From a virus: DNA of 62,751 nt. The notes under the pieces are model-generated. The model was not told where the DNA came from. It searched no databases and worked only from the letters and a program-made list of their open reading frames with translations. The stretch is from IMG/VR virus record IMGVR_UViG_3300018469_000176, positions 1 through 62,751 of that record, one strand, 5' to 3'. The position numbers and the translations under genes were made by a program. Numbering within the stretch: position 1 is the first letter of the stretch; every line of letters begins with the position of its first letter. This document shows, one piece after another, positions 205 to 19,627 of this stretch.

Positions 205-767
205 GACACCGCCCAGATGCCGAAGGTATAGGGCCCCCAGGACGGCATCTCCAACCGGATGAACGCGTCGACGCTGCCGAACCCGGCCCCCCGGAGCAGC
301 TCCTCGACCCCTTCCCGGTCCCACGCCCAGTAGTGCTCGAAATTGCTGTCGTACCAGGCATCGAGCGGGGTGGACAGCAGCAGCCGGTCGGTCTTCTTCC
401 GGATCTGCGCGAGCACCGCGCCGGGATCGTCGAGGTGCTCGATGGTCTCCGAGCACACGAACAGATCCACCGGGTCGAGCAGCACGAGGGTGTCTTCGAT
501 CATGCCGTGGAACTGGTAGCCGAAGCCCTCGGCGTAGTCGCCGAGGACCGGGCTGTCGCAGAGCGCCTGCGCGATGGCGCCGTTGCCGCAGGACAGGTCG
601 GCGACCGTGACCGCGCCGCCCTCGCGGTGGGTGTAGCCCCGCCCGAGCGCGATGGTGGCCGCCACCCGGACGTGGTGGTCGCGCCACCGGGAGGCGTCGT
701 GCGGGACCGGGTAGATCGCGGCCAGGGTGGTCGGCTCGTGGGTCGGCCGCAGCCGCTGCCGGGTCAC
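201..767 (-). CDS. SAM-dependent methyltransferase-like protein
   Basis: The 188-residue product has a class I methyltransferase fold signature. Motif I is degenerate (VADLSCGNGAIAQAL, residues 55-69), and a post-II acidic segment, LFVCSETIEHLDDP (102-115), resembles the SETIEHL box of Methyltransf_11/23 enzymes. The start is the GTG at 767, which overlaps the TGA of the glycosyltransferase-like gene upstream (GTGA). Adjacency to a sugar-transfer gene suggests modification of a glycan or glycoprotein, possibly virion decoration. The substrate is not shown by sequence, and DNA methylation is less likely because there is no NPPY or DPPY motif. Confidence 0.75.
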   Translation of the reverse strand: MTRQRLRPTHEPTTLAAIYPVPHDASRWRDHHVRVAATIALGRGYTHREGGAVTVADLSCGNGAIAQALCDSPVLGDYAEGFGYQFHGMIEDTLVLLDPVDLFVCSETIEHLDDPGAVLAQIRKKTDRLLLSTPLDAWYDSNFEHYWAWDREGVEELLRGAGFGSVDAFIRLEMPSWGPYTFGIWAVS

Positions 768-1468
768 AGCAGCGCCCTCAGCTTGTCGACGTCGGCGGCC
801 AGGCTGGGCCCGTCCTGCTCGGTGCCGTCGCGGTAGGCGTAGAACGCGGCGCTGTCCGCGGCCACCATCTCCGCGGAGTTGACCTCGACGTAGCCGGCGT
901 CCAGCTCGGCCTTGCCGGCGGCCGGGTGCACGTGCTCGATGACCACATCCGGCAGCCAGAACAGCCGCTCCAGGGCCTCGCCCCAGGCCTTCCACACCAG
1001 GTCGACGCACAGGTGGGTCATGGTGCCGGGCGCCATGTAACCGAGCGCTTGCACGATGTTGGAGGTCATCACCACGGCGGTCGGCATGGCCTCGCGCTGC
1101 AGCAGGTCGTCGCCGTAGGCGACACCGAGGCCGCCGGACAGGGCCTCGACCATGCGGTGGTCCCAGCCCGGGGTGCGCGGGCGGTGGTCGTCGCCGAGGA
1201 ACCCGACGTAGCGATAGTGCGGTGCCCAGGTGACCGCGCTGTGGTTCAGCGTGCGCACCATCCGGACCCGCGGCCCGGACATCCACCGGTCCCCGATGCC
1301 CTCCTGCTGGCGGCCGAGGTACTCCCACAGGTCCGGATCGTCGTCGTCGACGGCGAACAGCAGGTCAGTCAGATCCGGGTCGGTGTAGTGCACCCAGTTC
1401 GCCCAGAGCGCCGGCAGCACCGCCGCCCGGCCCCGCGTCGGGATGATGACCAGCAGTTCTGCCGTCAT
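764..1468 (-). CDS. Glycosyltransferase-like protein (GT-A/GT2-type)
   Basis: This 234-residue protein starts with a Rossmann-like strand (ELLVIIPTRGR, 3-13). It carries acidic clusters typical of nucleotide-sugar binding: AVDDDDPDL (39-47) and FLGDDHRPRTPGWD (90-103). IPTRGR near the N-terminus and a DD-containing motif about 80 residues later are usual in phage GT2-like enzymes. The ATG at 1468 lies directly beside two 13-bp operator sites, and no good Shine-Dalgarno is visible, so a short or leaderless transcript is possible. It forms a two-gene unit with the downstream methyltransferase. Donor and acceptor are unknown. Confidence 0.7.
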   Translation of the reverse strand: MTAELLVIIPTRGRAAVLPALWANWVHYTDPDLTDLLFAVDDDDPDLWEYLGRQQEGIGDRWMSGPRVRMVRTLNHSAVTWAPHYRYVGFLGDDHRPRTPGWDHRMVEALSGGLGVAYGDDLLQREAMPTAVVMTSNIVQALGYMAPGTMTHLCVDLVWKAWGEALERLFWLPDVVIEHVHPAAGKAELDAGYVEVNSAEMVAADSAAFYAYRDGTEQDGPSLAADVDKLRALL

Positions 1469-4130: not shown

Positions 4131-4382
4131 TCAGAGGCTTCCGGGGCACTCGGCCACGATCTCGTAGACGTCCACGGTGATGAGCCGGTTGCTCGCGGGG
4201 TCGCGCCACTGGCGGGGCCCCACGAGGATCGGCTCCCACAGCACGGTGAGCAGGTTCTCGGCGGCCATCTCGGCAGCCTGCTGGCGGACCGACTCCAGCA
4301 TGTCCTCCTCGGTCGCCGTGCAGCCCGCGACGTGGCGGACCAGCACCTTCATCACCACCACGTGCGGCTCGTGCGCGCTCAC
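4131..4382 (-). CDS. Small hypothetical protein coupled to replicase gene
   Basis: The product has 83 residues and starts with a GTG at 4382, which overlaps the TGA of the replicase gene (GTGA). Strand-helix-strand content is suggested by HVVVMKVLVRHV, an acidic helix (EEDMLESVRQQAAEMAAENL) and LITVDVYEIV. The layout resembles small ferredoxin-like alpha/beta domains. The coupling implies expression at a level similar to the replicase. Function unknown. Confidence 0.6.
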   Translation of the reverse strand: MSAHEPHVVVMKVLVRHVAGCTATEEDMLESVRQQAAEMAAENLLTVLWEPILVGPRQWRDPASNRLITVDVYEIVAECPGSL

Positions 4383-7300
4383 GCCGCGTCCGCCCAGGCG
4401 AAGGACGGCCCGGACTCCGCCGGCGCGGCCACGATCGGCACCCCGCGCAGCTCGCCGGCCATGCACTCGACCAGCGTCACCACGGCCTGCTCGGCCTCGG
4501 CCTCGGGGACGGCGACCACCAGCTCGTCGTGCACGGGCAGCAGTGTGCAGTGCCCCCACGGGGTATCGCGCCAACGCACCAGCGCATCCACCAGAAGTTC
4601 GCGCGCCGTGCCCTGGATGCAGTAGTTGGGCCCCTTGTGCGGGTACCGGCGGGGGAGGTGGATGATCCGCCCGGCGGTGGTCTCGAACTGGGTGTGCCCG
4701 GCCTTGATTCCCGCCCGGACCGTGGCGGACCAGGCGCTGAGCGTGGGCAGCATCGCGTCGAGCGAGTCCACCATGGACGCCGCGATGGCCTGCGAAGTAC
4801 CCATCTGCGCGGCCAGGGTGGGCACCGCACCGCCGTAGATCCGGCCGAAGACCCCGCGCTTGACCATGTACCGATCGTCCTTGGTCGCCTCGGGGCCGAA
4901 GACCTGCCGGGCGACCTCCCAGTGCAGGTCGCGCCCGTCGGCGATGAACTGGCGCAGCACCGCGTCCCCGGACAGCGCGGCGGCCACCCGCAGCTCCACC
5001 CCGGAGAAGTCCGCGGAGATCAGCAACTGGCCGGGGTCCGCGGTGATGCAGGCCCGGATCCCGCCCACCCGGGACAGCTGCTGCAGGTTCGGTCGAACGC
5101 AGGACATTCTTCCGGTGTCCGTCCCCAGGGTGTAGATCGTCGGCCGGGCCCGGCCGTCCCCACGGCACAGCTCGGCGTAGGGCCGCAGGAACAACGAGAG
5201 CGCGGTCTCGTGGTGACGGTGCTCCAGCACCGCGCGGGCGAACGCGCCCAGCTCGCCCTCGGCCTTGGCCAGCGGCTCCAGCGCGCCCTTGGCCACCGAG
5301 GGGCGGCCGGTCTTGGTCACCGGCAGCCGGGCGTCCAGGCGCAGCGCAACCTGCCCCACCTGCGCGTCGGAACCGGGGTTGTCCACGCCGAACGCACAGA
5401 CCGCCGCGGTGGCCTGGGCCAGCGCGGCGGTGTGCGTGGCGGTGAGCTCGGCGACGTGCGCGGCGTCCAGGGCCACCCCCACGTCGGTGACCCGGGCGGT
5501 CATCCGCTGGGCCAGCCGCTCGCGGGCCAGCACCGCCGGGGTGGGCTCGGGCAGCACCCGGGCCAACGCCGCGGTGTCAAGCACGTCGGCGGCGGCGTAG
5601 CGGGCCATCGTGGCGCACCGGGAGTCGACCTGCGCCCAGCCGGAGCGCTCGATCGGGGTGGTCACCTCGGTCTCCTTGAGCCAGCCGCCGACCTTGAACA
5701 GCGCGGTGCGCGCGGCGTCGGTGGTCGGGGTGACCGCGGTGTCGCCGAGCACCGCCGGCGCGAACTCCTTGAGCCCGGTCGAGTCGTTGCCGGTGGACGC
5801 GGGGTCGGCCAGCTTGGCCGCGATCACCGTGTCGACCATCCGGTCCCAGCCGGCCTCGATGTCGAGCAGCCCGGCGTGCGCGAGCGGCACGAGGTCCGCG
5901 GTGGCCGAGAAGGCGTGCAGCCTGCCGGCCTCGGCGAGCAGCTCCCGGATCGCCTCGGCGTGGTCGATCGGGTGGAAGACCGCGGCGGCCACCTCGTCGC
6001 CGAGCTGCACGGTCCGCAGCCCGTAGTGCACGTGCCCGATCGGGTAGCCGGTGGTCTCGACGTCCACGGTGATCCCGCCGGTGGTGCGCCCCGCGGCCGA
6101 GCGGACCACCGCGGCGGCCTGCTCGACGCTGGTCGGGATCACGTGCAATTCGGCATCCACTACCACCGGGAGGGTCAGGATCTCGCCGGCCGCCGCCGCG
6201 ATGGCGTCGAGCCGGGCCTGTGCCTTGGCTGCCGCGTCGGCGACCCGCTTGGCCTCCTTGAGGATCACCCGGGCCTCGGCCTTGGTGATGCCCCGTTCGT
6301 CGGCCATCCGAGCCACCGCGGTGTTGGTGACTTTCCGTGACGGCGCCGGCCCCTCGGGGAGATCAACAGGCGGTTCTGGCGGGTCGAGCGGGCTGGCGGG
6401 ACGATTTTCCGGTCCCGCCAAGTCGGATCGTTGCAGGTCAGACCCGGTTTTGGAGGGTGTTTTCGGCGGGCTGGCGGCTTGTTCCCTAGGGGTTGCTGGG
6501 GATTCTGGGAGTACTAGGCTATTTGGGGGGTGTGTGTTTTTTTCTCCTGTTTTCCTAGTAAAACTAGCCAACCCGCCAACAGTACCGTCGAAAACGTAGG
6601 GGGAGCTGCGGTGATCTTTTTTGGCGGCTTCGGGATCCGACCCGCCAGAACCCGCCTCAGACCCGCCAGATTCCTTGATCGTCCCGGTGACCCCCTCGGC
6701 TCCACGGACCACGTGGCGGGTTGGCAGCGGCTCCCAGGGCGCGATGCCCGCCGGTCCGCTCAGCACGGACAGTGGGCGGTGCCACTTGCCGTTGATCTTC
6801 TCCGAGGGGTAACCCATGTCGGTGAGGGTCCGACCGAACGCGGTGATGGTGGCGACCGACATCCTCCGGTACACCGGGCTGCGCTGGTGCCACTCGGCGA
6901 AGTGGTTGTAGAGGGTGCGACCGGGCGTGCCCGGATCGGCGGGCACCGTGCAGTCCTCCACCCACTCGCGCACCGGGTCCTGGGCGTGCGCGACCTCCTC
7001 GGCCATCCCCCGGATGGTGATCGGGGCAGCCGAGAGGGTGGCGGTGGTCTGGTCGGCCAGCCATGCGGCGGCCTCGCGCATCATCGCGGCCAGGATCCCG
7101 GGCGCCTCCGCGGCCAGGGTGGCACGGTCCAGGCGCGCCCACAGCGGCGCGACCGTGGCCTCGGGCGCGTTGCAGGGGATCAGCCGGATCCGGGCGCGCA
7201 GCGCGGGGTCGGTCAGGGTCGGCTCGGTGTTGGTGGTCATCACCAGGGTGTGGGTGGGGGCGAAGGTGACCGGGTTGCCGTTCATCGGGCGCGCGGTCAT

Positions 7301-9184
7301 GGACCCGCCGCCGGTGAGCTGCTTGAGCCGTTCGGTGGCGTCGTGCCCGCGCTTGGGTCCCTCGTCGATGAAGCTCAGCCGGCGGCCCTTGAGGTCGTAG
7401 ATGATCGCGTCGTGGTCCCGGTTGTCGCCGAGCAGCTTGGCGTTCGCGGCGTGCCCGTAGGAGCCGACGGTCTGCAACAGGAACTCGATCAGTGAGGTCT
7501 TCCCGGAGCGCTCCCGGCCGTAGAGCATGGGCACCACCGCGGTCGGGTAGCCGGTCAGCGCCACCGACAGCACGCGCAGCGCCCAGGCCCGGATCTCGGG
7601 GTCGGGCAGCACGCCGGCGAGGAACGCGTCCCAGGCCGGGGTCGGCACGTCGGGGTTGGGCGCGCACCGCGCGGTGTGCAGGTGCGGGGTGTTCGGGTCG
7701 ATCCAGTACGCCGGGGTGGGCACCTCGCCGCTCTCCCGCAGGTTCCACGGCACGCGCCCAGCCCAGAGCACCTCGGGGTTGGTGTCGAGCTCGGCCACCT
7801 TGAGCGTGGCCGCGTTGTCCGACATCAGGATGTCGCGCAGCTTGCGGGTGACCTTCCCGGCGCCGGCCGAGGACAGGAACATCGCCCGGCGCACGGCCTG
7901 CCAGTGCCCTTCGGTACGCTCGCCGGCCGCCGCCGGGATCGGGGTGGAGCCCAGCGGCATCAGCTCGGCCAGCGCGGCCACGATCCAGCCGGAGAGATCC
8001 TTCGGGTCGGCCACCCACGCGTCGGGCTCGCGTTTGATCCACAACCCGGCGTCCTGGGCGAAGCGCAGCACCGGGAACATGCGCCCGGCCACCTCCTTGG
8101 CCAACCCCTGGTCGCTGCCGTCTCGGCTGGGGTCGAAGGGGTAGTCCGGGCTCAGCGCGGTCCACACGTTCCACGGCGGGTCCGGGGGCGCGTCGGCGGG
8201 CTCCTCCTCGCCCTCCTGGGCCACCGCCTGGGCCGCCGCGGAGAACTGGGCCTCGTCCTCGCGGGTGTAGACGTAGAACGGTCGCTGCGAGCCGTCATCG
8301 AGGCCCTGGCGGATCCAGAGCAGGTCGTCGGTGTCCGGCGTACCCCAGACCCCGCTCACGGCCGCACAGAGCCGTCCCTCGGCCTCGTCGCGGTCCAGGA
8401 AGCCGCCGCCGACGTAACCGCCCAGGGTCATCGACGCGCGCAGCAGCGCGTTGCGGAACCCGAGCCCGCCGACCGGGTTGTAGGTCGCGACCTCGGCGAG
8501 CTTCTCGTCCATCGCACGGTGCGCGGCCTCGGCCGACTGCGGCTCTCGGGAGAGCACGAACGTCCGCCACCAGTCCGGGCCGCCGACCAGCGCCCCGACC
8601 GCGGTGCCGGCCCGGAGCTCCCGGACGTGCGCGGCCAGCGTGAGCCCGCTGGTGTCGCCGCCGGCGCGCAGCGCGTCGAGGTCCGGCGGGGTGATCCAGC
8701 GGTAGGCCGTCGGCTCGCCGGTGACCTTGGACGGGCGCACCGTGGGGGCGATGTAGGCGAACCCGTGGGAGGTGCCGTCGGGCAGCCCGCCCTTGAGGTC
8801 GATGCCCGGGTAGACGTTGTCTCGCGAGCCGGCCTGCAAGCTGGCGATGAACGAGTGCACCCCACCGGACGGGGTCGTCGCGGTGCCGTAGGACAGCGGC
8901 GGAGCCTCACCCAGCGCGGCGACGTCGGCGCCGTTGCGGAAGTCGAAGTCCACCAGGTCCAGGCCGTGGCCCATGACCGCGCACAGCGCCATCCCGGGCT
9001 CCCAACGGTCCACGATGGACGGATCGGCGGGGATCTGTTCCCAGCGGTTCGGCCGCAGGAACCCGGTCTTGGACGCGGGGTCGGGGTCCGGGAAGGCGAT
9101 GAAGATCGGGACGCCGGCGCGGGCCAGCTCGCGGGCGATGTCGAGGGCCTGGAGCTGGGCGGCATCGAGCTCGGTAGTGGTCAT
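4379..9184 (-). CDS. Fused primase-polymerase, SF3/D5-like helicase and family A DNA polymerase
   Basis: One uninterrupted 1601-residue frame carries a complete replisome core. Residues 1-200 resemble the bifunctional primase/polymerase N-terminal domain (Prim-Pol), with the acidic pair in DLVDFDFRNG near 75-85. An SF3/D5-like ATPase follows: Walker A GRERSGKTS near 556, Walker B-like LSFIDEG about 45 residues later, and a TTNTEP sensor. Residues about 790-1010 are a low-complexity Pro/Ser/Lys linker. The C-terminal third is a DNA polymerase I: exonuclease motif VDVETTG near 1040, polymerase motif A ISADFSGVELR near 1388, and motif C LPVHDEL near 1550. The ATG at 9184 overlaps the resolvase stop (ATGA). 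Separate primase-helicase and PolA genes are the usual phage arrangement, so the fusion is unusual. A slippery heptamer in the linker may produce a second, shorter product. Confidence 0.9.
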   Translation of the reverse strand: MTTTELDAAQLQALDIARELARAGVPIFIAFPDPDPASKTGFLRPNRWEQIPADPSIVDRWEPGMALCAVMGHGLDLVDFDFRNGADVAALGEAPPLSYGTATTPSGGVHSFIASLQAGSRDNVYPGIDLKGGLPDGTSHGFAYIAPTVRPSKVTGEPTAYRWITPPDLDALRAGGDTSGLTLAAHVRELRAGTAVGALVGGPDWWRTFVLSREPQSAEAAHRAMDEKLAEVATYNPVGGLGFRNALLRASMTLGGYVGGGFLDRDEAEGRLCAAVSGVWGTPDTDDLLWIRQGLDDGSQRPFYVYTREDEAQFSAAAQAVAQEGEEEPADAPPDPPWNVWTALSPDYPFDPSRDGSDQGLAKEVAGRMFPVLRFAQDAGLWIKREPDAWVADPKDLSGWIVAALAELMPLGSTPIPAAAGERTEGHWQAVRRAMFLSSAGAGKVTRKLRDILMSDNAATLKVAELDTNPEVLWAGRVPWNLRESGEVPTPAYWIDPNTPHLHTARCAPNPDVPTPAWDAFLAGVLPDPEIRAWALRVLSVALTGYPTAVVPMLYGRERSGKTSLIEFLLQTVGSYGHAANAKLLGDNRDHDAIIYDLKGRRLSFIDEGPKRGHDATERLKQLTGGGSMTARPMNGNPVTFAPTHTLVMTTNTEPTLTDPALRARIRLIPCNAPEATVAPLWARLDRATLAAEAPGILAAMMREAAAWLADQTTATLSAAPITIRGMAEEVAHAQDPVREWVEDCTVPADPGTPGRTLYNHFAEWHQRSPVYRRMSVATITAFGRTLTDMGYPSEKINGKWHRPLSVLSGPAGIAPWEPLPTRHVVRGAEGVTGTIKESGGSEAGSGGSDPEAAKKDHRSSPYVFDGTVGGLASFTRKTGEKNTHPPNSLVLPESPATPREQAASPPKTPSKTGSDLQRSDLAGPENRPASPLDPPEPPVDLPEGPAPSRKVTNTAVARMADERGITKAEARVILKEAKRVADAAAKAQARLDAIAAAAGEILTLPVVVDAELHVIPTSVEQAAAVVRSAAGRTTGGITVDVETTGYPIGHVHYGLRTVQLGDEVAAAVFHPIDHAEAIRELLAEAGRLHAFSATADLVPLAHAGLLDIEAGWDRMVDTVIAAKLADPASTGNDSTGLKEFAPAVLGDTAVTPTTDAARTALFKVGGWLKETEVTTPIERSGWAQVDSRCATMARYAAADVLDTAALARVLPEPTPAVLARERLAQRMTARVTDVGVALDAAHVAELTATHTAALAQATAAVCAFGVDNPGSDAQVGQVALRLDARLPVTKTGRPSVAKGALEPLAKAEGELGAFARAVLEHRHHETALSLFLRPYAELCRGDGRARPTIYTLGTDTGRMSCVRPNLQQLSRVGGIRACITADPGQLLISADFSGVELRVAAALSGDAVLRQFIADGRDLHWEVARQVFGPEATKDDRYMVKRGVFGRIYGGAVPTLAAQMGTSQAIAASMVDSLDAMLPTLSAWSATVRAGIKAGHTQFETTAGRIIHLPRRYPHKGPNYCIQGTARELLVDALVRWRDTPWGHCTLLPVHDELVVAVPEAEAEQAVVTLVECMAGELRGVPIVAAPAESGPSFAWADAA
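6149..6161 (-). promoter_or_regulatory. Operator-like site inside the replicase gene
   Basis: The minus strand reads AGTGGATGCCGAA, matching the 13-bp family AGTGGATGCCACT at its first 11 bases. It falls just upstream of the exonuclease domain and uses codons uncommon in this gene (GTA, GAA, TTG). In cluster A mycobacteriophages similar sites within genes block transcript elongation. That role is inferred here. Confidence 0.4.
6519..6544 (-). promoter_or_regulatory. Candidate -1 programmed frameshift site (A AAA AAC)
   Basis: In the linker between helicase and polymerase the zero-frame codons are GAA AAA AAC, placing the heptamer A AAA AAC (6542-6536) in exactly the phase needed for tandem -1 slippage. 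The -1 frame reads five codons (His-Thr-Pro-Pro-Lys) and then TAG at 6521-6519, giving a product of about 888 residues containing only the primase and helicase. An AGGA lies 10-11 nt upstream, at the distance of the stimulatory Shine-Dalgarno of dnaX. I see no strong downstream hairpin. The A7 run is conspicuous in such a GC-rich gene. Confidence 0.6.
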
Positions 9185-17725: not shown

Positions 17726-19627
17726 ATGTCCAAACGGCGCCACGTCACCGCATCCGACCTGCCCGGGCTCGCGGGGTCCTGGGCGCTGCGGAAGCTATGG
17801 AAATGGCGCGGCGTGCTCATCCCGATCTGGCTGGCGATCAGCCTGGCCATGGTCGGGACCTTGGTCAACGCGCTGTGGCCGACGTGGTGGCCGGCGCCGA
17901 TCTCGCTGGCCCTGCTCGCCGCCGCGGTGATCTGGTTCGTCGGCGAGCACCTGTCCGGGCCGTGGCGCAACGTGTGGCTGTGGCTGGTCCCCTCGGCCCT
18001 GGACGACGGACGCCGTGGGGTGCTCGACCGACCCACCGAGCGGGCCTACCTCGCGGTGCTGCTGACCCTGTGTGGGGCCTGGACATCCCGGCTGGTGCAG
18101 GACGGCTGGTCGGACCCGCTGTGGTACGCCCTGCTCGCCGGGGTGCTGGTGCTCGGGGCGCCGTGGTGGTGGCACCGACGCCTGCGCCGCTCGGTCAACC
18201 GGTTCGTCCGCCGCTGGCCGGCTATCGCCGAGCGGATCAAGGGGTTCGAGAAGTCCACGGTGCGGCTGCTCCCCGAACAGTCCACCCGCAAGGTCACGGT
18301 CCTGTCGGTCAAGCTCGCGCCGACCAAGACCATCGAGGACGTGGGCACCACACTGCTGCCGCTGGCATCGGGCTTCGGCCTCCGCGGCGGCGCCTGCACG
18401 CTGGCCAAGGACGAGAACTCGGCCCGGCACGTGACGCTGCGGATCGTCCCGCGCAACCCCTGGTCCAAGCGGATCGCGCACCCGTGCCCGCCGATCGGCA
18501 GCCTGGACCTCACCCAGGACGAGCTCACCGTGGGCACCGGGGTGCTCGACGACGCCACCGAGCAGCGGATGGCGCTGTTGCACTGCACCGGGGTCATCGG
18601 CCAGCGCGGGAGTGGCAAGTCCGGGATGATCGAGTCCCTGCTGATGTGGATCACCGCGGCGGAGCCCAGGCACTACGCGCTGCTGGGCATCGACATGGCC
18701 CACCTCGCCACCCTCGGCGTGTGGCAGCCCGCGTTCGCCTACCCCATCGCCGGCACGATCGACGCCGCGCGCAAGCTGCTGCAGGGTCTGTTCGCGCTCG
18801 GTGAGTACCGGGAGGAGGAGCTGGCCCGGCGCAAGATGGCGGACCCGAACTACGGCAACGTCCTGCGGATCGGCGCGGAGTTCCCGGTGGTGTTCGTGCC
18901 CATCGACGAGCTGCCGGCGCTGGTCGTGCAGGGCGGCTCGTCGGTCATCACGGCGCTCGGGCAGATCGCGCAGCGCTTCCGCAAGGTCAACATCTTCTTG
19001 ATCCCGGCCGGGCAGAACCCGACCGAGCACGACTTCGGATCCACCGAGTTCCGCGCGCAGTTGGAGAACATCATCGGGCTGTTCCTCGACGCGCGCCAGT
19101 CCCAGACGCTGTGGGGGGAGGAGCGCAAGCACGGGTGGGCGAGCAACCACCTGGCCCCGTTCACCCACCTGCTGCACTCCCGGGTCGGGCACACCACCCC
19201 GCGAGTGGCCCAGGGCTACTACGTGTCCCCGCGCATGCGCGCCCGGCGCCTCGGTGAGCTCGCCCACCTCGGCGACCGCGGGATGCTCGACACCGGCTCC
19301 ATGACCGCACTGGTCGGGCACACCAACCCGGGCATCGACGACGGCAAGTCCGGCACCACGGTCGCTCCGCAAGCACCCCCCGTGCTGCACGCTGTGCCTG
19401 CGCTGCCGGCCCGCCCGGCGTCGTCGGCGGAGTTGGACGACAAGGTGCTGCGCGAGCTCCCAGCGCGCCACCAGGGCTCCGTAGGGGCCACCGCACTGGC
19501 CACCCAGCTCGGGGTCAGCCGCGACGCCGTCACCCGCTCGCTGGGCCGACTGCGCGTTCAGGGTCGGGTGGTCAAGGTCGACCGGGAGTGGGCGCTGGCT
19601 CCCACTCAGCGAGTGGACAGCCCATGA
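17726..19627 (+). CDS. FtsK/SpoIIIE-like DNA translocase (TraB-like)
   Basis: This 633-residue protein has about four N-terminal membrane segments (residues 27-150) followed by an FtsK-type ATPase: Walker A GVIGQRGSGKSG near 290 and Walker B VVFVPIDELPALV near 390. A C-terminal winged-helix segment near 570-620 reads LATQLGVSRDAVTRSLGRL. Membrane region, motor and DNA-binding wHTH in this order is the plan of actinomycete plasmid TraB/TraSA, which moves double-stranded DNA between mycelia, and of FtsK. Replication segregation or a packaging aid are alternatives, and FtsK-like genes do occur in other actinophages. GGAAGGCGAAG precedes the ATG. Confidence 0.85.
   Translation: MSKRRHVTASDLPGLAGSWALRKLWKWRGVLIPIWLAISLAMVGTLVNALWPTWWPAPISLALLAAAVIWFVGEHLSGPWRNVWLWLVPSALDDGRRGVLDRPTERAYLAVLLTLCGAWTSRLVQDGWSDPLWYALLAGVLVLGAPWWWHRRLRRSVNRFVRRWPAIAERIKGFEKSTVRLLPEQSTRKVTVLSVKLAPTKTIEDVGTTLLPLASGFGLRGGACTLAKDENSARHVTLRIVPRNPWSKRIAHPCPPIGSLDLTQDELTVGTGVLDDATEQRMALLHCTGVIGQRGSGKSGMIESLLMWITAAEPRHYALLGIDMAHLATLGVWQPAFAYPIAGTIDAARKLLQGLFALGEYREEELARRKMADPNYGNVLRIGAEFPVVFVPIDELPALVVQGGSSVITALGQIAQRFRKVNIFLIPAGQNPTEHDFGSTEFRAQLENIIGLFLDARQSQTLWGEERKHGWASNHLAPFTHLLHSRVGHTTPRVAQGYYVSPRMRARRLGELAHLGDRGMLDTGSMTALVGHTNPGIDDGKSGTTVAPQAPPVLHAVPALPARPASSAELDDKVLRELPARHQGSVGATALATQLGVSRDAVTRSLGRLRVQGRVVKVDREWALAPTQRVDSP

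Follow-up and report, generated by a model that had tools for sequence, protein, structure and literature searches.

A putative iteron origin in the linker-coding DNA of a fused Prim-Pol, helicase and DNA polymerase gene of an actinobacterial siphophage

The Fused Replicase Gene

The window analysed here (the whole stretch of 62,751 nucleotides, positions 1 to 62,751 of the IMG/VR virus record IMGVR_UViG_3300018469_000176) carries a gene in which a Prim-Pol domain, a superfamily 3 (SF3) helicase, a 3'-5' exonuclease and a family A DNA polymerase are fused. The DNA encoding the linker between helicase and exonuclease bears an array of short repeats (iterons) and is probably the replication origin used by the encoded protein. 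The open reading frame (ORF) lies on the minus strand at 4379–9184 and consists of 1601 codons plus the stop in a single reading frame. The preliminary description, made from the letters alone, had given these coordinates, which stand once the gene is assigned to the minus strand; its domain composition and single-ORF fusion of 1601 residues were borne out by the ORF analysis and profile searches. Its ATG start overlaps the preceding gene's stop, the two genes sharing 4 bp (9181–9184). The 62.7-kb record also encodes a terminase, a portal, a major head protein and a tape measure, and the virus is an actinobacterial siphophage. The parts of the gene are as follows, GC3 being the GC content at third codon positions.

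4379–9184, minus strand: fused replicase gene (Prim-Pol, D5-SF3 helicase, linker, exonuclease, family A polymerase)
8675–9157, minus strand: Prim-Pol-like (archaeo-eukaryotic primase, AEP) domain, residues ~10–170, motif residues D79/D81, H110 and D129; PF09250 threshold not reached by the window protein
6878–7687, minus strand: D5/P4-type SF3 helicase, residues 500–769, with Walker A 556–563, Walker B 605–608, Asn sensor 652 and Arg 663–667
6749–6982, minus strand: residues ~735–812 at the C-terminal end of the helicase, a candidate winged helix for origin binding
6293–6673, minus strand: interdomain linker, residues 838–964, and putative replication origin; GC3 0.46–0.64 in the middle versus ~0.95 elsewhere
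5525–6079, minus strand: 3'-5' exonuclease domain, residues 1036–1220 (DVETTG, ADL, YAAAD)
4415–5497, minus strand: family A polymerase, residues 1230–1590, with motif A DFSGVELR, motif B R..K...F...YG and motif C HDE

Profile searches matched the polymerase and the helicase directly. DNA_pol_A (PF00476) was found with an E-value of 3.6e-47 (161.5 bits against a threshold of 34.3) and with motifs A, B and C present. The helicase matched DUF5906, the D5-type ATPase (PF19263; E 9e-10, 39.6 bits against a cutoff of 27.6), and TIGR01613, the P4-family primase_Cterm (112.6 bits against a curated cutoff of 108.7). Among solved structures its profile matched C962R of African swine fever virus (3.7e-11) and, weakly (0.0013), the "DNA primase" 7ola, which we take to be the SaPI5 primase-helicase. 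Membership of the P4/D5-type SF3 family predicts a hexameric ring with 3'-5' unwinding. The candidate winged helix is suggested by the homologue L017, where Pox_D5 (E 0.002) and RFX_DNA_binding (E 0.022) matched this region, both below their cutoffs, and by analogy with the SaPI/SCCmec helicases discussed below. The exonuclease fell just short of the PF01612 threshold (20.4 bits against 23.6) with its catalytic acidic motifs intact. Every motif named in the preliminary description was located: Walker A (GRERSGKT) lies at residue 556 and Walker B (FIDE) at 605, the exonuclease motif DVETTG at 1041, and the polymerase motifs DFSGVELR and HDE at 1392 and 1552.

The evidence for the Prim-Pol domain is indirect. 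The window protein fails the PF09250 threshold in a Pfam profile search; the homologue L018, whose N-terminus matches that of the window at 5.6e-78, matches PF09250 at 7.5e-8, and six further homologues (L007, L013, L015, L019, L020 and L022) match it at 3e-11 or better. The AEP catalytic motifs DxD, sxH and hD are present, with D79/D81, H110 and D129 invariant in six homologues, which together point to a Prim-Pol domain.

Outside the linker, nearly every 50-codon bin had a GC3 of 0.88–1.00, and the ratio of nonsynonymous to synonymous divergence (dN/dS) in the exonuclease-polymerase part was about 0.3–0.4 between the window and the homologue L002, from another viral contig; the fused ORF is thus not a chance frame. 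A candidate internal ATG (VARMADERG) for a separate polymerase was rejected, as it is a Leu codon in L002, and so was a frame shift within the linker, where no codon position recovers high GC. Rfam and tRNA searches for an RNA element gave no match. The stoichiometric coupling of unwinding, priming and synthesis that the preliminary description expected from the fusion is plausible.

Iterons in the Linker-Coding DNA and beside Unfused Helicases

The linker is more than a passive connector, being encoded by DNA with an iteron array resembling a replication origin. The GC3 of the window gene, ~0.95 throughout, falls to 0.46–0.64 over codons 851–950, and the same dip was observed in 16 of the 16 fused homologues examined, the linker peptides of which are unrelated. 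In 13 of these 16 linkers one 8-mer is present 5–10 times, counting both strands, a number matched neither by 500 synonymous-codon shuffles per member nor by other windows of equal length in the same ORF. The repeat variant is mostly uniform inside a genome and different between genomes: TGGCGGGT in the window, and TGGAGGGT, TGACGGGT, TGCAGGGT-type or GGACAGTT in others. The window holds seven exact copies of TGGCGGGT in 62.7 kb, five of them within 345 bp at the linker. The copies in and near the linker of the window are as follows.

6571–6668, minus strand: iterons ahead of the core in gene orientation, TGGCGGGT at 6661–6668, 6640–6647 and 6571–6578
Within 6571–6668: pre-core variants, AGGCGGGT at 6650–6657 and an inverted variant at 6622–6629
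6533–6572: the core, a 40-bp low-GC stretch (35% GC) and putative DNA unwinding element
6377–6531, plus strand: iterons beyond the core, mostly inverted, TGGCGGGT at 6377–6384 and TGGCGGGA at 6394–6401
Other post-core copies: one-mismatch copies at 6451, 6472 and 6524, and one direct copy at 6413–6420
6714–6721, plus strand: outlying inverted copy of TGGCGGGT, in the 3'-terminal stretch of the part encoding the helicase

The direct and inverted copies occupy all three reading frames and so encode different peptides, which indicates selection on the DNA and not on the peptide. Their layout is conserved. The arrow order >>><>>[low-GC core]<< is common to most members with a D5-type helicase, with spacings of 21/11/25/42/9 bp in three of them (L013, L014 and L016), and the order in the window, read on the gene strand with one mismatch allowed, is >>><>[core]<<<><<. 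The core of L014 is only mildly low in GC (55%).

In order to avoid circularity, DNA patterns alone were also scanned on viral contigs, and a locus was counted as near a helicase when the end of a homologous helicase lay within 500 bp; a few of the scanned loci were contigs of the fused set found again. Among 80 loci with TGACGGGT doublets, a helicase was nearby in 25 of the 36 with both orientations and in none of the 44 with one orientation (Fisher 1.7e-12). The replicate with TGGAGGGT doublets gave 24/36 and 1/44, respectively (p 1.5e-10), and a scrambled control gave 22 loci, of which none had two orientations and none was near a helicase. The arrays lay within the ORF, in the linker, at fused loci and mostly a short way past the helicase ORF at unfused loci, which ties them to the helicase and not to the polymerase or to the composition of the linker peptide. 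At unfused loci from phages of varied GC content, L089, L112, L155, L234 and L286 among them, an iteron array follows closely on the D5-type helicase gene, and such arrays are candidate origins in many uncharacterised phages.

Distribution and Modularity of the Fusion

A second viral contig carries the same fused ORF with 77% identity. A polymerase profile scan of viral contigs returned a tight group at 51–67% identity, followed by a fall to ~32%. Almost all members of this group whose upstream side was present had one ORF of 1444–1905 amino acids; outside the group the genes were separate. When bacterial genomes were searched, a single-protein query found no match and an alignment query succeeded, detecting fused copies in Labedaea, Micromonospora (two species), Nocardioides (two), Haloactinopolyspora and Jatrophihabitans, from which Actinomycetes are deduced to be the hosts. 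The fused gene was a second, extra polA in the four bacterial genomes checked (4/4). It is rare, as only three of ~394 Actinomycete genomes held a close full-length fused member, two of which were previously in the fused set. No record covering more than 80% of the window protein was found among 50,697 phage and 72,556 plasmid records, and a helicase-only scan of viral contigs matched solely the contig of L002.

In a polymerase tree of 97 rows from viral contigs and actinomycete genomes, all 25 fused proteins fell in one clade with a Shimodaira–Hasegawa-like approximate likelihood-ratio test (SH-aLRT) support of 100. This clade also holds three members truncated by contig ends and two exceptions. 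One of them, L208, is a decayed locus in a metagenome-assembled genome; in the other, L021 (3373–6234 and 6014–7699), a frameshift, either a sequencing error or real, interrupts the ORF inside the exonuclease domain and not at the linker. The sister clade (n = 66) consists of 65 split genes and one truncated copy. A single fusion event is the simplest reading of a single fused clade. The survey of fused and split relatives proposed in the preliminary description thus placed the split genes in the sister clade.

Within the fused family the polymerase half is constant and the upstream half variable, most members having Prim-Pol and a D5-type helicase. In L015 (3421–7752) Prim-Pol is followed by an AAA_25 (RepA-like) ATPase in place of the D5 helicase, and the linker still bears a GGACAGC repeat array; here the helicase type appears to have been swapped and the repeat-bearing linker retained. 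Between the window and L002 the synonymous divergence (dS) stood at ~0.6 for N-terminal part and linker alike (dN 0.40 and dS 0.58 in the linker) and dropped to ~0.13 right past the linker. This fall implies that the polymerase and upstream halves were probably exchanged at the linker, by recombination. Two members contain insertions that are probable inteins: in L010 (2011–7725) the helicase P-loop (GGENGK|TT) is interrupted by an insert with LAGLIDADG, and L022 (2869–8433) has an insert of ~240 residues in the polymerase ahead of CVRPNLQQ, ending in HN.

The replication block around the fused gene of the window comprises a phrog_1981 protein of unknown function, a second DNA helicase, a phrog_1674 exonuclease and a small protein matching families annotated as nucleotide kinases. 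Elsewhere in the window, a 633-residue protein (17726–19627, plus strand) showed weak FtsK/SpoIIIE-like matches, unusual in a siphophage, with a possible link to conjugative elements. A glycosyltransferase-like protein (764–1468, minus strand), which also matches a profile annotated as DNA methyltransferase, may modify the phage DNA or the host surface.

Origin Interpretation and Known Systems

The Rep protein of Staphylococcus aureus pathogenicity islands (SaPI) and the Cch2 protein of the staphylococcal cassette chromosome mec (SCCmec) are self-loading helicases, each binding, through its C-terminal domain, the short iterons of an origin that directly follows its own gene (PMC7581432). The linker DNA of the window has the same anatomy, with short iterons directly after the helicase coding part and an AT-rich stretch (the 35% GC core) between the iteron arms, and an origin is the best explanation of this match. 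We consider it likely that the linker-coding DNA of the fused replicase is its own iteron origin. Several observations weigh against this. No significant repeat array was found in L010 by the 8-mer shuffle test, and L018 and L020 were not significant for an exact 8-mer, their linkers showing visibly degenerate GGCGGGT-type copies. In each blind scan, 11–12 two-orientation arrays were without a detected helicase within 500 bp; for some of them the helicase was 0.5–1.8 kb away or the array lay at a contig end. The third-position GC skew showed no switch at the linker and gives no support. A cumulative skew minimum lies nearby, at 5405; GC skew was left unused as an origin marker.

In the mechanism we propose, the short iterons that the gene carries in its linker-coding DNA would be recognised by the putative DNA-binding part at the C-terminus of the helicase. 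SF3 rings would load themselves on each side of the low-GC core and open the duplex there; primers would then be synthesised on the separated strands by Prim-Pol and extended by the family A polymerase, which is tethered and proofreading. The ancestral element may have had a Prim-Pol–D5 helicase followed directly by an iteron origin, as in the unfused relatives and the SaPI/SCCmec elements. A downstream polymerase gene would then have been joined in frame once, so that the ORF now runs through the origin, and the translated origin is predicted to serve as a disordered linker.

That the linker is merely a disordered tether of a real fusion, its odd composition and repeats arising from relaxed constraint or slippage, would agree with a low-complexity, unconserved peptide (dN and dS given above), and is quite improbable: the repeats lie on both strands and in all frames above the level of synonymous shuffles, their orientation order and spacing are kept across proteins of ~50% identity, and they also occur past helicase stop codons, where no linker is encoded. 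Alternatively, the repeats may bind a protein for a role other than initiation, such as operon autoregulation, partition or a crossover site swapping the polymerase and primase halves. The drop in dS right after the linker, which places recombination there, and the variation of N-terminal modules upstream of a constant polymerase would fit such a role. We regard it as unlikely, since at unfused loci the arrays track the D5 helicase and not the polymerase, two arms flanking a low-GC core are the anatomy of an origin and sites of this kind serve the SaPI/SCCmec helicases as origins; a mosaic origin could still function as one.

Cleavage of the chain in its long and probably exposed linker, yielding a primase-helicase and a polymerase, has a precedent in Pfprex, a related arrangement described as proteolytically processed in the published passages (PMC7689252). 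It is unlikely here, as the linker peptides have nothing in common from one member to the next and show no evident conserved cleavage motif, and we infer a single mature polypeptide; the origin reading is independent of cleavage. Finally, an assembly error removing a stop codon in the linker, raised in the preliminary description, found no support and has a negligible probability: the same in-frame fusion recurs in independent contigs and named bacterial genomes, ~25 independent fused homologues in all, which excludes it.

If the linker DNA is an origin, the ORF alone might constitute a one-gene replicon, holding initiator, helicase, primase and proofreading polymerase with the origin in its own linker DNA, and the iteron sequence might co-evolve with the DNA-binding part of the helicase, giving phage-specific specificity. 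As transcription and translation traverse the origin, expression and initiation could be directly coupled. We put this extension forward tentatively, at a little under even chances. If true, one gene of ~4.8 kb would be a complete replication system, a compact candidate orthogonal replicon for actinomycetes as well as a model of the tethered replisome. How a fusion could occur without loss of the origin would be explained too, the origin having become the linker. A simple search rule would follow for the origins of many actinophages and mobile elements that are still uncharacterised, namely a helicase coding sequence whose end is followed by a TGNNGGGT-type array, and the natural iteron variants would help to show how D5 helicases select origins.

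Primase-helicase and polymerase are normally separate in phages according to the preliminary description. This holds for the nearest non-fused relatives, which are split; a published exception is the PolA polyprotein of the thermophilic virus OS3173 ("Pyrovirus"), with 1,606 amino acids, a primase/helicase-like N-terminus, a 3'-5' exonuclease and a family A polymerase (PMC7689252, PMC10423840). In the passages of these two sources, this similar fusion of nearly identical length belongs to a family fused in some viruses and separate in others, its hosts are Aquificota and no linker origin is described. Its helicase part is DUF927/COG5519, whereas the window has Prim-Pol and a P4-type D5 helicase and no DUF927 match in a Pfam search. 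Plasmodium PREX (Pfprex) resembles the window protein as a replicase polyprotein with several functions and a family A polymerase at its end, and PREX polymerase chains were matched by the profile of the window family. Unlike the window protein, PREX is eukaryotic, apicoplast-targeted and proteolytically processed, and its primase-helicase is of another type, with RecA/TOPRIM domains; Pfam shows the D5 type and no RecA/TOPRIM domains in the window protein, which therefore has no PREX-type primase-helicase.

The SaPI5 Rep and Cch2 helicases are D5-type like that of the window, but the SaPI/SCCmec origin is intergenic and no polymerase is fused, whereas in the window the ORF continues through the putative origin. 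In the Prim-Pol–helicase proteins ORF904 of pRN1 and gp43 of corynephage BFK20 (PMC4538821), and in TV-Pol-D5 of Sputnik (PMC2579912), the priming or polymerising domain is N-terminal to the helicase, as in the window, without a second, proofreading polymerase of family A. The actinophages Nicky22, Nitro, Vash and TP1604 have adjacent primase/helicase and PolA genes, sometimes with a 4-bp overlap, encoding two proteins unlike the window; the primases of the first three begin with a CHC2-type zinc-finger region and not Prim-Pol. At the primase-polymerase junctions of the Streptomyces phages TP1604, phiSAJS1 and Xkcd426, a ~100-bp gap with inverted repeats and no iteron array was found. A gap of ~100 bp with inverted repeats is conserved at the Streptomyces phage loci L323, L324 and L325, and looks like a promoter or operator.

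A D5 helicase, linker and family A polymerase also share one ORF in the Streptomyces plasmid pS1D4-14.2 (L321, 5008–9348; WP_181360814.1, 1446 amino acids), annotated only as "phage/plasmid primase, P4 family". GC3 dips in its linker as well, where two inverted pairs of CCGGTACC flank a low-GC core; the repeat evidence is weak (p 0.012). Compared with the window, its N-terminus is DUF3854 and its polymerase only ~29% identical, and this DUF3854-D5-PolA protein is apparently an independent fusion. In the open-access literature (subscription literature lay outside the search), neither a Prim-Pol-D5-PolA fusion nor an origin inside the linker of a fused replicase was found. The origin of phage lambda lies inside its initiator gene, and published passages on plasmid RA3 place oriV at the 3' end of repB. 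Since fusions of primase/helicase with PolA and origins inside initiator genes were already known, the surprising part of the arrangement proposed here is the origin embedded in the linker.

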